Shown here: piece by piece, positions 6,113 to 10,948 of the stretch
How positions within the stretch are numbered: position 1 is the first letter of the stretch
Layout: each line of letters opens with the position of its first letter
Source of the DNA: Sphingomonadaceae bacterium
GTDB lineage: Bacteria > Pseudomonadota > Alphaproteobacteria > Sphingomonadales > Sphingomonadaceae
DNA length: 64,000 nt
Assembly: GCA_029268145.1 (NCBI GenBank)
Contig: JAJUHA010000001.1
Coordinates: forward strand, 186,001 to 250,000
Reading direction: 5' to 3'
Translations under genes and position numbers: made by a program
Notes under the pieces: model-generated
What the model saw: the letters and a program-made list of their open reading frames with translations, nothing else
Database searches by the model: none
Told to the model about the DNA's origin: nothing

Positions 6113-7972
6113 ATGTCAGCGGGGATGGCCAATGAGAACCCGATCGAGGAGCTGCGCGTCGCGCTCGAGGCCTGCGCGCGCGCGCTCGGCAGGCGGGCCG
6201 AGCTTCAGCTTTCCTACACCGCCGACAGGCCCACCCTTTCCGGCGACAGCGCCCGCGTGCCGCAGCCCGGCCGCGCGCTTCCCCCCGAGCAGGTGGCGGA
6301 AGCGCGTGGCTGGGCCGACAGCTTCGCGCTCCGCCAGCGCCTGCACGACGCCCGCGCCCACGCCCAGGTGGCGGTCGCCCCGGGGCTTGCCCGCGATCTG
6401 CTGAACGCTGCCGAACAGGCCCGGATCGAGGCGGTCGGCGGCCGCGAGATGGCCGGAGTCCGCCAGAACCTCGACCGGATGACGGAAGTCCGCTTCCGCA
6501 CCGACCCCATCGCCCGCGCCCGCACCGCCGAGGAGGTGCCCATGGCCTCGGCGATGCAGCTCATCGTGCGCGAGCGCCTCACCGGGGCCGCACCTCCGGC
6601 CGCTGCTGCCGCCGCCCTCGAGCTCGTCCGCGCCCGCCTCGAGGAGAAGGCCGGCACCCATCTCGATGCGCTGGCCGCCTGCCAGGACGACCAGGCCGCC
6701 TTCGCCGAGGCGTTCGTCCGCGTCCTCTCCGATCTCGGCCTCGCCGACGATCCGGATGCCGAGCTCGACGAGGAGGAGGAGGCAGAGGCGGGCGAGGGCG
6801 AGGAAGGCGCCGAGGAGGAGCAGGAACGGACCGAGGACGAGGCCGGCGAGGCCGCGGACTCCTCGGTCGAGACGCGCAGCGACGCCGAGGGCGAGGAGGA
6901 GGGCGAGGACAGCCGCGAGGTCGACATGAACATGGACGATCTCGCGAACGCCGAAATGGGCGAGGAGGGGGAGGAGGGCATGATGCCCTGGCGGCCCAAC
7001 CTGCCCACCGAGAAGCTGCCCCCGGAGTTCGACTACCGGGTCTTCACCCGGGAATTTGACGAGCAGGTCACCGCCGAGAGCCTGTGCGACGCCGAGGAGC
7101 TCACCCGCCTCAGGGGCTATCTCGACCAGCAGCTGGTCACGCTGCAGGGCGCCGTCACCAAGCTTGCCAACCGGCTCCAGCGGCGCCTGCTCGCCCAGCA
7201 GAACCGCGCCTGGGACTTCGACCAGGAGGAAGGCCTTCTCGATACCGCGCGGCTCACGCGCGTCGTCGTCAGCCCCGAACATCCGCTCTCCTACAAGGTG
7301 GAGCGCGACACCGACTTCCGCGACACGGTGGTGACGCTTCTCATCGACAATTCGGGCTCGATGCGCGGCCGGCCGATCTCGATCGCGGCCATCTCGGCCG
7401 ACATCCTCGCCCGCACGCTCGAGCGCTGCGCCGTCAAGACCGAGATCCTCGGCTTCACCACGCGGGCCTGGAAGGGGGGGCAGAGCCGCGAGAAATGGCT
7501 CGCGGCCGGCCGCCCGGGCAAGCCTGGCCGCCTCAACGATCTCCGGCACATCATCTACAAGGCCGCCGACGCACCGTGGCGGCGCGCCCGGCGCAACCTG
7601 GGCCTCATGATGCGCGAGGGGCTGCTCAAGGAGAATATCGACGGGGAGGCGCTGCTGTGGGCGCACGAGCGCCTGCTCGGCCGACCCGAGGACCGGCGCA
7701 TCCTCATGGTCATCTCCGATGGCGCGCCAGTCGATGATTCGACGCTGTCGGTCAATTCCGGCAACTATCTCGAGCGCCACCTCCGGCAGGTGATCGGCTG
7801 GATCGAAAACCGCTCGCCGGTCGAGCTCATCGCCATCGGCATCGGCCACGACGTGACGCGCTACTATCGCCGGGCCGTCACCATCATGGACGCCGAGCAG
7901 CTCGGCGGCGCGATGGTGGACCAGCTCGCCCAGCTGTTCGAGGAGGACGTCCCGCCGCGCGGTCGCCGCTGA
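6113..7972 (+). CDS. cobT: Cobaltochelatase CobT-like subunit
   Basis: A 619-residue CobT-type protein of the AAA+/VWA chelatase that, with CobN and CobS, inserts cobalt into hydrogenobyrinic acid diamide in aerobic B12 synthesis. It shows the N-terminal CobT domain, a strongly acidic low-complexity middle (about residues 220-300, runs of Glu and Asp), and a C-terminal von Willebrand A domain with the MIDAS DNSGS starting at Asp412 and [11 protein letters not shown] later. An in-frame ATG at 6125 is an alternative start; neither has a strong ribosome site. No cobS or cobN is nearby, so its role here is inferred from family only. Confidence 0.88.
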
Positions 7973-8133: not shown

Positions 8134-8166
8134 CGACAGTAAATGTCCTGGTTTCAGGGGACAAGG

Positions 8167-9153
8167 ATGACAGGAATGAAGATGAAGCTTCTTGCGGCAG
8201 CGGCCGCTGCCGCTCTCGGCGCCACCGGCGCAAGCGCAGCCGCCATCATTGGCAACGGGACGATCGGTCTCGGCGTCAACGATGAGGGCCACCTCAACCT
8301 CTTCGGCGGCCCGCCGAGCGCCGGCGGCACCTCTGCCTATGGCCTGCGCGATCTGCGCACCGGCTATGAGGCGACCGCGCCGGGCTGCCTGTGCGAAGGC
8401 TGGGGCATCTCGGACGGGACCAACGGCTGGGCGGCCTCCGTCGATACCGGCGGCGTCTCGGTCGGCCTCGTCAGCTTCGGCGCGACCGCCTCGACCGCGA
8501 CCAGCGTCACCACTGCGGGTGGCATCTTCGAAGTGACCCACGCCTTCCAGCCGTCGGCTTCGGCGGACCTCATGGAAGTCATCGTCACCATCAAGAACAT
8601 CTCGGGCGCACCCGTTGCCAACACGCTCTACCGCCGCGGGATGGACTGGGACGTCGAGCCGACGCCCTTCAGCGAATATGTGACGATCGGCGGCACCGCG
8701 GCAGCCACTGCCGTGATCGGCGCGGTCGACAACGGCTTCTGCAACGTGAACCCGCTCGCCGGCTGCACGCCGATCGTGCCCGGCGGCGTCGGAGACTTCG
8801 TCGACCTCGGCCCGGCCGACCATGGCGCCAACTTCGACTTCAGCTTCGGCCCGCTCGCCGATGGCGAGTCGGTCTCCTTCTCGATCTTCTACGGCGCCTC
8901 GCCGACGCAGATCGGGGCCTTCAATGCGCTGAACGCGGTGGGCGCGGAAGTCTATTCGCTTGGCAAGTCGAACGACAACCTTGCCGGAACGCTCGCCGAC
9001 CGGTCGGTCTTCATCTTCGGCTTCAAGGGCGTCGGCGGCGTCGTGGTGCCCCCGGGCATTCCCGAACCCGGCACCTGGGCGATGCTGATCGCCGGCTTCG
9101 GCATGGTGGGCTTCGCTGCCCGCCGCCGCCGGACAATGATCGCCACGGCCTGA
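8167..9153 (+). CDS. PEPxxWA-CTERM sorting domain protein, exported
   Basis: A 328-residue exported protein with a signal peptide (about residues 1-24, Ala-rich core) and a C-terminal sorting tail of 30 residues: PEPGTWA, a hydrophobic stretch and an Arg cluster (AARRRR). Such tails are recognised by an exosortase in the inner membrane. The body is Gly/Ala/Thr-rich with four cysteines (CLC, and a CNVNPLAGC pair) and beta-strand-like alternation; no enzymatic motif is visible. The start at 8167 has a GGGG ribosome site 6 bases upstream and agrees with the promoter; ATG 8176 is possible. No exosortase gene is in the window. Confidence 0.9.
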   Translation: MTGMKMKLLAAAAAAALGATGASAAAIIGNGTIGLGVNDEGHLNLFGGPPSAGGTSAYGLRDLRTGYEATAPGCLCEGWGISDGTNGWAASVDTGGVSVGLVSFGATASTATSVTTAGGIFEVTHAFQPSASADLMEVIVTIKNISGAPVANTLYRRGMDWDVEPTPFSEYVTIGGTAAATAVIGAVDNGFCNVNPLAGCTPIVPGGVGDFVDLGPADHGANFDFSFGPLADGESVSFSIFYGASPTQIGAFNALNAVGAEVYSLGKSNDNLAGTLADRSVFIFGFKGVGGVVVPPGIPEPGTWAMLIAGFGMVGFAARRRRTMIATA

Positions 9154-9219: not shown

Positions 9220-9609
9220 TCAGAGCAGCAGATCGGCGGCAAGGAAGGCGAAGAAGCCACCGATCGCCCAGACCAGCGCCGAAAGCGCCAGCGTGGCCGC
9301 CGAGATGCGCCGCAGCCGGGCGCAGGCCGCAGCCTTCGCCGCGTCCGCCGGGCAGGGCAGCCGGGCCGCCCGCCGGTGCATCAGGAAGGCCGCAAGAAGC
9401 AGCAGCCCGGACGCAGCGAACAGCCAGGCCTTCCAGCGGGAGAGCGCCACCAGCCACGGCGCCGCCGCGACGAGCCCGGCAAGCGCCGCCCCCAGCCCCA
9501 GCGTCACCATGAGCGCCGGCAGCGCGCAGCACAGGAGCGTCGAGGCCGAAGCGAACAGGCTGAGCGTCGGCGCGAGCGTGTCGCGCCAGCCCATCACCCT
9601 TTCCGTCAC
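9220..9609 (-). CDS. MerT-like metal transport membrane protein
   Basis: A 129-residue protein with three hydrophobic segments. The first contains a vicinal cysteine pair (STLLCCALPAL, about residue 24), and the loop before the third has a second pair spaced by nine residues (PCPADAAKAAAC). This is the cysteine layout of MerT, which passes Hg(II) from a periplasmic binding protein to the cytoplasm. The GTG start overlaps the stop of the MerP-like gene (GTGA), so the two are coupled. There is no merA or merR nearby, so the metal may be copper, mercury or another soft metal; the function is inferred from layout. Confidence 0.68.
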   Translation of the reverse strand: MTERVMGWRDTLAPTLSLFASASTLLCCALPALMVTLGLGAALAGLVAAAPWLVALSRWKAWLFAASGLLLLAAFLMHRRAARLPCPADAAKAAACARLRRISAATLALSALVWAIGGFFAFLAADLLL

Positions 9610-9905
9610 GGCCGGTCCTCCCGGCGGATCGCGGCGACGGCATAGCCGGAGTCGGTGATGAGCTTCGCAAGCTCGGGGTCGGTCAGCGTCGAGCCGGGCC
9701 GGAGGGCCAGATGCACTTCCCCCCTGTCGAGGTCGACATGGACCCGCTCGACATCCTCCCGGCGCTTGAGCAGGGCCTCGATCGATCGGGCGCAGAAGTC
9801 GCAGACGAGGCCGTTCACCCTGACCGCCACGCGCTGGGCGGGGGCGGCAAGGACCGCCGGGGCGGAAAGCAGCGCAAGCGCTGCAGCAACGAGAATGGAA
9901 CGCAT
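9606..9905 (-). CDS. Periplasmic heavy-metal-associated (MerP-like) protein
   Basis: A 99-residue protein with a signal peptide (about residues 1-20, cleavage near APAVLAA) and one heavy-metal-associated domain. The metal site is NGLVCDFCARS, a CxxC at the usual position, instead of the classical GMTCxxC. The rest has the ferredoxin-like alternation (VERVHVDLDRGEVHLAL, ITDSGYAVAAI). It should bind a soft metal ion in the periplasm and hand it to the MerT-like partner encoded by the overlapping next gene. The variant motif is shared with copper-chaperone-like proteins in other Gram-negatives, so mercury specificity is not implied. Confidence 0.82.
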   Translation of the reverse strand: MRSILVAAALALLSAPAVLAAPAQRVAVRVNGLVCDFCARSIEALLKRREDVERVHVDLDRGEVHLALRPGSTLTDPELAKLITDSGYAVAAIRREDRP

Positions 9906-9916
9906 CGCCAGTCCTT

Positions 9917-10549
9917 TCAGAAGCGGAAGGTGGAGTTGAGGATGACACCGCCGGTGCCGGTCACGCCGGCTTCCAGCATGACGGTGCGGTGGAAGGCGCG
10001 GGCGACGAAGGCCGGCTCGACCCGGTTCCTCGCCGCGCTGTCGCGCCGAAGCTGGCCGAACAGCCACAGGTGCACGGCGCCATAGCCCGCCACGAAGGGC
10101 GCGAACCCGGCGCGCAGCATCTGCATGTCGACCGTCTCGATCCCGTCGCCATGGCTCAGCTCGGCCATGCCCATCACCATGAGTCGGCGGTTCTCCCAGT
10201 CTCCCTGGACCCGGGCGAAGCCGCCGGGCCGCGCTTGGCCGCCGTCGCGCCAGGCCGCGCCCGCGCCGCCGGAGACGTAGAGATTGGCCTGGGCTGCCGG
10301 GAGGTTCCATCGGTGGACCAGCCAGGTCGCCTGGGGGCCGACGAGGGTCCAGTCACCCTCGCGCATCCGGCGCGCGGCAAGCCCCGCCGACCAGTGCCGG
10401 CTGGGCGTGTAGTGAAGGAGAACGGACCCCATGTCGGGGTTCCAGTCCTGGATCGCCGTCCAGCCTCCCGGCCAGGAGACCGGGCGGGCGGGCGCGGGGC
10501 CTGCGCCGAGCGCAAGCGCGGCCGCAAGCGCGGCAGTTGCAGTTCGCAT
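9917..10549 (-). CDS. Outer-membrane beta-barrel-like protein of the metal cluster
   Basis: A 210-residue protein with a signal peptide (about residues 1-22, Ala-rich) and a body of alternating polar and hydrophobic residues rich in Gly, Trp and Tyr, ending in the aromatic terminus NSTFRF typical of outer-membrane beta-barrels. I do not recognise a named family. It lies 11 bases upstream of the MerP-like gene on the same strand and so probably works with it, possibly as an outer-membrane component or sensor of metal load. It contains no cysteine; His and Met residues are present but not in clear binding motifs. Confidence 0.6.
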   Translation of the reverse strand: MRTATAALAAALALGAGPAPARPVSWPGGWTAIQDWNPDMGSVLLHYTPSRHWSAGLAARRMREGDWTLVGPQATWLVHRWNLPAAQANLYVSGGAGAAWRDGGQARPGGFARVQGDWENRRLMVMGMAELSHGDGIETVDMQMLRAGFAPFVAGYGAVHLWLFGQLRRDSAARNRVEPAFVARAFHRTVMLEAGVTGTGGVILNSTFRF

Positions 10550-10600
10550 GTCTTGTCCTTTCGCTGACGGGAAGATTGGCCGCGGCTGCGGCCGGGCGCG

Positions 10601-10948
10601 TCAGGCGAAGGCGCGCGGTGGGTGGAAGGGGCCGGAGGCCTCGGCCCGCGCCGGTCGTTCCCCCGGAGGGAGGCGCGGGGCCGTGCGGACGGCAATCCGC
10701 GCCGCGAGCCCGCGCGCGGGCATCATGGCACCGGGCAGGAGGCAGCCGCCGCTGCAGCCGTCGGGGCAGCAGGTGGGGAGCTTCGCCTCGTCGACGGCTG
10801 CACCGGCGCCTTCGTCGTGGCAGTCCGCATGCCCGGCAGTGGCCGACGGTGCCGGCGCGAAGGGTTCGGGCAACGCCATCGCCGGCGCGTGCGCGCTCGC
10901 GGCCAACAGGCCGAGCAGCACGAGGAGGCTGACGAGAGGGCGGTGCAC
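10601..10948 (-). CDS. Small exported Cys/His-rich protein (CopL/DUF2946-like)
   Basis: A 115-residue protein starting with GTG, with a signal peptide (about residues 1-26) and a short metal-ligand-rich segment: HADCHDE, then TCCPDGCSGGC about 20 residues later, then a Pro/Arg/Ala-rich tail. The layout resembles the small exported proteins that precede copper-resistance genes (CopL and the DUF2946 group), but similarity is by pattern only. It is the first gene of the leftward metal cluster, 51 bases upstream of the outer-membrane protein gene. It could bind metal directly or act as a leader; both are inference. Confidence 0.6.
   Translation of the reverse strand: MHRPLVSLLVLLGLLAASAHAPAMALPEPFAPAPSATAGHADCHDEGAGAAVDEAKLPTCCPDGCSGGCLLPGAMMPARGLAARIAVRTAPRLPPGERPARAEASGPFHPPRAFA

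Follow-up and report, generated by a model that had tools for sequence, protein, structure and literature searches.

Which metal do the products of a compact four-gene cluster handle, and in which direction would they move it? This question is raised by positions 9220-10948 of the window (i.e., the whole 64,000-nt stretch of DNA analyzed here, which corresponds to contig C1 186001-250000 of a 2.66-Mb genome, hereafter G000, that is 99.77% complete). The ORF listing of the window places four ORFs there, all on the minus strand:

10601..10948, minus strand: gene 1, a putative CutF-like leader ORF (115 aa, GTG start, signal-like N-terminus, Cys cluster, C-terminal PP)
9917..10549, minus strand: gene 2, a predicted 12-strand outer-membrane beta-barrel (210 aa; from a structural model and family comparison)
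9606..9905, minus strand: gene 3, an exported protein with a single HMA domain (99 aa; GLVCDFC at residues 32-38)
9220..9609, minus strand: gene 4, a distant MerT homologue by profile comparison (129 aa; three long helices predicted)

The gaps amount to 51 nt between genes 1 and 2 and 11 nt between genes 2 and 3, and genes 3 and 4 share 4 bases. This layout agrees with the coordinates of an earlier note, made from the letters of the DNA, that had described four genes on one strand with the last two overlapping by 4 bases and had remarked on the lack of MerA, MerR, CopA, and CueO. Indeed, none of these four genes occurs within 9220-10948. Genes 1, 2, and 4 gave no Pfam or NCBIfam match at E <= 1. 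Convergent with gene 4, the window holds an ORF for an exported protein (8143-9153, plus strand) with the C-terminal tail IPEPGTWAMLIAGFG...RRRR, which we take to resemble a PEP-CTERM sorting signal; a 619-aa ORF (6113-7972, plus strand) presumably encodes a cobaltochelatase CobT-like protein.

The earlier note had named a lack of co-conservation as one outcome that would refute its reading, and the genes proved to be co-conserved. The gene 4 query gave 448 places confirmed in genome contigs, and we analyzed the best 80 of the 448, which are the closest relatives and not all of them. Genes 2, 3, and 4 follow one another in this order on one strand in 75 of these 80 loci, as they do in 15 of 18 loci from a class search with gene 2 as the query, and they stand together in all 5 other relatives that bear gene 2. 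Gene-order co-conservation is far beyond chance. Gene 2 is sparsely distributed, with matches in 6 of 59 relatives, 19 of 385 genomes at the class level, and 4 of 398 at the phylum level (own genome counted each time). The records behind the best 80 of the 448 gene 4 matches are mostly metagenome bins, and their titles name Alpha-, Beta-, and Gammaproteobacteria, Bdellovibrionales, Dadabacteria, and others; neither gene 2 nor gene 4 had a match on plasmids. In one locus (L103), a second short HMA-like exported protein (1134-1433) is encoded just before gene 2, a CsoR-type gene follows, and no gene 4 was found in the available stretch.

The structural model of gene 2 comprises twelve strands behind an N-terminal helix (pLDDT 94.1). 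In structure comparison it came closest to the barrels of autotransporters, to KdgM, and to other outer-membrane barrels of this kind (Z up to 15.7). Gene 2 is predicted to be a 12-strand outer-membrane beta-barrel of an unnamed family. None of the Pfam families tested matched it at cut-off, and PagL was the commonest of the weak matches (6 of 60 members, best E 1.3e-4). We also considered PcoB/CopB, likewise a small barrel of copper loci, and rejected it as a relative on sequence grounds. PcoB (7pge) is among the structural matches at Z 10.9, but unrelated barrels rank above it, and profile similarity is lacking (hhalign probability 0.8, no PF05275 match).

Gene 3 scored 28.3 bits against HMA (PF00403; cut-off 24.8) and 28 bits against MerP (TIGR02052), the latter under the curated cut-off of 92.55. 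Its 92 relatives carry either GLVCDFC (n = 53) or a near variant (n = 39). The comparison of gene 4 with the MerT profile gave an hhalign probability of 97.4 (E 1e-11), and by this measure gene 4 is a distant MerT homologue. PF02411 was not matched by gene 4, no MerT match to PF02411 was found in its own genome, and one of six aligned relatives reaches E 0.0066 with this family. In MerT, vicinal Cys residues lie in the first helix, and the loop connecting helices 2 and 3 holds a further Cys pair. The same layout was found in gene 4, whose model contains long helices at residues 8-36, 52-83, and 90-128. A structure search returned no PDB match better than E 6.9, and the model yields helix positions only. 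The Cys positions of the two proteins are as follows:

9792..9803, minus strand: CDFC metal motif of gene 3, residues 35-38 (from the sequence)
9526..9531, minus strand: Cys27-Cys28 of gene 4, in the first long helix (from alignment and model)
9322..9354, minus strand: Cys86 to Cys96 of gene 4, in or beside an Arg/Lys-rich loop (from alignment and model)

Cys27, Cys28, Cys86, and Cys96 are all invariant across 56 aligned sequences. Moreover, CC..P together with a second Cys pair beginning CP occurs in 94 of 95 gene 4 sequences, the sole exception (L023) having CS where the others have CP. By the positive-inside rule, the loop with Cys86 and Cys96 would be cytoplasmic. Genes 3 and 4 resemble MerP and MerT as an HMA protein beside a small membrane protein with intramembrane and loop Cys pairs. 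They differ from that pair in the absence of MerA and MerR from the present operon, the extra outer-membrane barrel, the missing PF02411 match, and a loop Cys spacing of nine residues.

CutF of Rhodobacter capsulatus is, in the available text of PMC9973294 and PMC8456105, a short protein that is exported, contains CXXXC, and ends in a proline-rich stretch, and the former source gives rules for CutF-like leaders that include a length of <150 aa. Two features of gene 1 bear on these rules:

10742..10771, minus strand: codons 60-69 of gene 1, CCPDGCSGGC, with CXXXC twice (C61-C65 and C65-C69), a putative copper site (from the sequence)
10616..10621, minus strand: codons 110-111 of gene 1, PP followed by RAFA and the stop codon, a putative stalling motif (from the sequence)

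At 115 aa, gene 1 is shorter than 150 aa; its PP (residues 110-111 of 115) falls within the last 15 residues; the next gene on the same strand begins 51 nt on, within the 1000 nt of the rule; and its two CXXXC motifs are of the kind that the CutF Cys rule describes. The hydrophobic N-terminal stretch of gene 1 was judged by eye and that of its relatives by a simple count. The last Cys lies 41 residues from PP, the corresponding distance being 41-42 by the residue numbers of CutF given in the available part of PMC8456105. Among the relatives, we counted as a leader any ORF before gene 2 with a signal-like start, at least 3 Cys, and PP within the last 15 residues. Leaders and regulators were counted in 92 loci (93 with gene 2; L022 was left out as its upstream stretch is too short), two pairs of which are identical (L035/L100 and L054/L104). 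Leader-type ORFs were found in 57 of the 92 loci vs 7 of 307 control ORFs, a count from a strict filter that misses leaders visible by eye (e.g., in L104). CXXC or CXXXC is present in 53 of the 57 leaders, the spacing from the last Cys to PP is 38-48 residues in 49, and 37 have a PP that begins exactly six residues from the end. In addition, gene 1 does not match DUF2946 (PF11162, CruR), which has no match anywhere in G000 at E <= 1; a search of 23 carrier genomes gave some DUF2946 matches, none of them in G000. Gene 1 fits the published CutF-like leader peptides and is a putative nascent-chain copper sensor.

Pairing between the stop region of the leader and the next ribosome-binding site (RBS) has been described for cutFOG, according to the accessible text of PMC9973294. 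The putative arms of such a stem in the window are these:

10599..10611, minus strand: 5' arm, the last codons of gene 1 and its stop codon (from the pairing computation)
10557..10569, minus strand: 3' arm, including AAAGG, the RBS of gene 2 (from the pairing computation)

The pairing was tested in 56 loci, i.e., the window and 55 of the 57 leader loci (L016, whose leader had been picked in a wrong frame, and L049, which yielded no usable start, were left out). The mean duplex of cognate arms was -12.1 kcal/mol, vs -7.8 (sd 0.32) when arms were permuted among loci, and 0 of 5000 permutations reached the real value. The stop codon lies inside the pairing arm in 52 of the 56 loci, and the effect peaks at the stop codon. 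A locus's own partner arm ranked best of 56 in 11 loci and among the best five in 34. Pairing also exceeded that of composition-keeping shuffled arms (mean z -2.35; 33 of 56 at 5% or better) and of other stretches of the same locus (mean z -2.37; 32 of 56), and was stronger with the DNA upstream of gene 2 than with that upstream of gene 3 in 50 of 56. When ten gene 1-gene 2 junctions were folded, stop-codon/RBS stems appeared in several relatives, such as L101, where CUCCUGAUA pairs with UAUCAGGAG (z -3.6). For the window alone, the duplex of -16.0 kcal/mol (z -1.66 and -1.49) is only suggestive; the minimum free energy fold of its gene 1-gene 2 region prefers another structure, itself no better than shuffles (z -0.69 and -0.94).

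Regulators were counted by profile searches up to 800 nt before gene 2 or up to 500 nt after the last gene found. A CsoR-type (13) or MerR-type (4) gene was identified in 17 of the 35 loci without a leader vs 0 of the 57 with one (Fisher p 3e-9 over the 92 loci, which are related). With loci merged by gene 2 identity, this exclusion has p 3e-5 (43 groups), 0.019 (23), and 0.23 (13). Neither a leader nor a regulator was found in 18 of the 92 loci, partly because the leader filter is strict. Copper-sensing CsoR proteins are marked by a Cys-His-x3-Cys arrangement of residues, and this C-H-C triad is present in 12 of the 13 CsoR-type regulators. For the three of them that were scanned, the best NCBIfam model was the copper repressor RicR, below its cut-off; ZntR and CueR matched about equally in two scanned MerR-type neighbors.

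Copper genes also occur near the operon in relatives. Clusters of multicopper oxidase/CopB type lie near 5 of the best 80 of the 448 gene 4 loci (one set was confirmed by models), and in L063 (6358-8813) genes 2, 3, and 4 are followed directly, on the same strand, by a copper ATPase gene and a CopZ-like gene. As a separate observation, four loci (L036, L039, L047, and L054) contain, at ~1.5-4 kb of each locus, a divergent TonB-receptor-like gene and a second small CC-containing membrane protein, a cluster that we take to resemble a metal-uptake set; a further conserved gene was seen in the divergent cluster of these four and of L077.

The remainder of G000 was searched for copper and mercury functions. 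Neither MerA nor an HME-type RND pump was found in this genome over cut-off, a second HMA protein was not found, and TIGR01511 (copper P-type ATPase) gave no match. Unlike G000, the same-genus carriers G001 and G002 have a TIGR01511 match over cut-off. Contig C9 of G000 encodes a CopA-type multicopper oxidase followed by an ORF named CopB-like by likeness. These genes (L135 565-3371) stand near the contig start, before transposase-like ORFs recognized by eye, and look like a mobile copper-resistance patch. The copper ATPase match is absent from 11 of 23 operon carriers vs 7 of 32 non-carriers, the latter hand-picked from the relative and class genome lists and not random (Fisher p 0.08, not significant). 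The operon occurs both with and without the ATPase, and we discarded this distribution as a test of direction.

Collectively, genes 1-4 very probably form a copper-responsive operon, and its induction by copper is likely because CsoR frees its genes when copper is high and CutF increases expression. With somewhat better than even confidence, we propose that this leader-controlled operon responds to copper through gene 1 and that genes 2-4 form a Cu(I) relay that removes the excess. More specifically, gene 1 would be exported while it is being synthesized, and its CXXXC cluster would meet copper at the translocon or in the periplasm. The ribosome would then pause at the C-terminal PP, and the pause would open the stem that joins the stop-codon region of gene 1 to the RBS of gene 2, such that genes 2-4 would be made at high copper. 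Copper would pass from protein to protein, namely by way of gene 4 (with its membrane Cys pair and its cytoplasmic-loop Cys pair), the periplasmic HMA protein of gene 3, and the barrel of gene 2, and the relay would take excess copper out of the cell. In favor of this reading, G000 has neither a copper ATPase match nor an HME-type RND pump over cut-off. A trio of proteins that spans inner membrane, periplasm, and outer membrane and is induced by copper is best read as serving excess-copper removal.

Several points weigh against this proposal. The stop-codon/RBS pairing of the window itself is only suggestive, and gene 1 has no DUF2946 match. Passive export of Cu(I) against the membrane potential has no evident energy source here, which counts against it as well. 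In addition, CruR, which belongs to the same broad class of leader, lowers expression with copper, and therefore control by copper might run in either direction. The relay idea of the earlier note partly stands, in that one operon for metal handling spans the outer membrane, periplasm, and inner membrane, although a place for gene 1 in the chain is not supported; its guess of copper gains from the copper-type regulators and neighbors of the relatives, from which we infer copper as the ligand in the present organism. We also entertain, tentatively and with more doubt than belief, a copper export line free of any ATPase, consisting of an outward-working MerT-like protein, an HMA protein, and a dedicated 12-strand barrel that would carry Cu(I) from the cytoplasm to the exterior. 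In some genomes this line would replace the copper ATPase, and its nascent-peptide sensor would be exchanged in other lineages for CsoR or a MerR-type regulator.

Copper uptake, one of the routes that the earlier note had suggested, now appears unlikely, although it is the alternative that survives best. Here the barrel would admit copper, gene 3 would bind it, gene 4 would import it in the manner of MerT, and a CruR-like leader would shut the operon when copper is plentiful. MerT is an importer, and the homology of gene 4 to it speaks for this direction. So do several carriers that are small-genome marine lineages without a copper ATPase match, as well as the divergent TonB-receptor cluster that the operon adjoins in four small-genome marine carriers. 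A leader of this sign also has a precedent, as CruR heads a copper-repressed operon for a TonB transporter in Bordetella pertussis (PMC9426467, in its available text). However, the operons of relatives carry CsoR- or MerR-type regulators, types that activate their genes when copper is high according to the accessible text of PMC6769254, and the 51-nt gap with its stop-codon/RBS stem resembles that of CutF, whereas the gap described for CruR is long (162 bp) and Rho-dependent. Removal of excess copper fits better than uptake.

It is quite improbable that gene 1 yields a mature metal-binding protein of the periplasm that works in the relay, and not a leader peptide. Its richness in Cys and His and its predicted export would suit the metal-handling role implied by the earlier note; on the other hand, the Cys-to-PP spacing and the position of PP are conserved in relatives, the RNA around the stop codon covaries with the next RBS, and the leader is exchanged with regulators among loci, all of which argues for a CutF-like regulatory leader instead. 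Least probable of all is that the relay carries a different soft metal (Hg, Ag, Zn, or Cd) and that its copper-like regulators are such by descent only, as the MerT/MerP-like parts and the MerR-type neighbors of 4 loci (with ZntR and CueR level in the two scanned) might suggest, given that MerA over cut-off was found in 0 of 15 carrier genomes and that the CsoR copper triad (12 of 13) and the multicopper oxidase, CopB, and copper ATPase neighbors point to copper.

Returning to the leader-controlled removal of copper, its closest known counterpart is cutFOG of R. capsulatus, in which a small exported Cys/PP protein likewise heads a copper operon (PMC9973294 and PMC8456105, in their available text) and is followed by a short gap with a stem that involves the RBS of the next gene. 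The two operons differ downstream of the leader, where cutFOG has a multicopper oxidase and a chaperone, according to the same partial text, and the present operon has a barrel, an HMA protein, and a MerT-like protein. In CruR-bfrG of B. pertussis, too, an envelope operon that includes an outer-membrane protein begins with a leader ORF that senses copper, but the outer-membrane protein is a TonB transporter and not a small barrel, the gap is a long one with Rho termination, and the operon is copper-repressed (PMC9426467, in its available text). The main text of PMC9973294 lacks the words 'MerT', 'mercur', and 'HMA', and that of PMC6769254 lacks MerT, MerP, and mercury. Full-text literature searching, whose coverage leaves out most subscription journals, recognized no description of the four-gene operon, and within this searching the earlier note was right to call it undescribed. 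Genes 1-4 are a conserved and apparently unnamed operon. What appears new is the joining of a CutF-type leader and a MerT/MerP-like pair, both of known kinds, with a new barrel family.

These results provide an unnamed outer-membrane barrel family with a testable role in copper handling. The same holds for MerT/MerP-like pairs of aquatic and largely uncultured lineages, which might otherwise perhaps be misread as mercury genes. Finally, the relatives offer a natural series in which one operon stands under either a nascent-chain or a DNA-binding copper sensor, and this series may help to test how, and in which direction, CutF-like leaders act.
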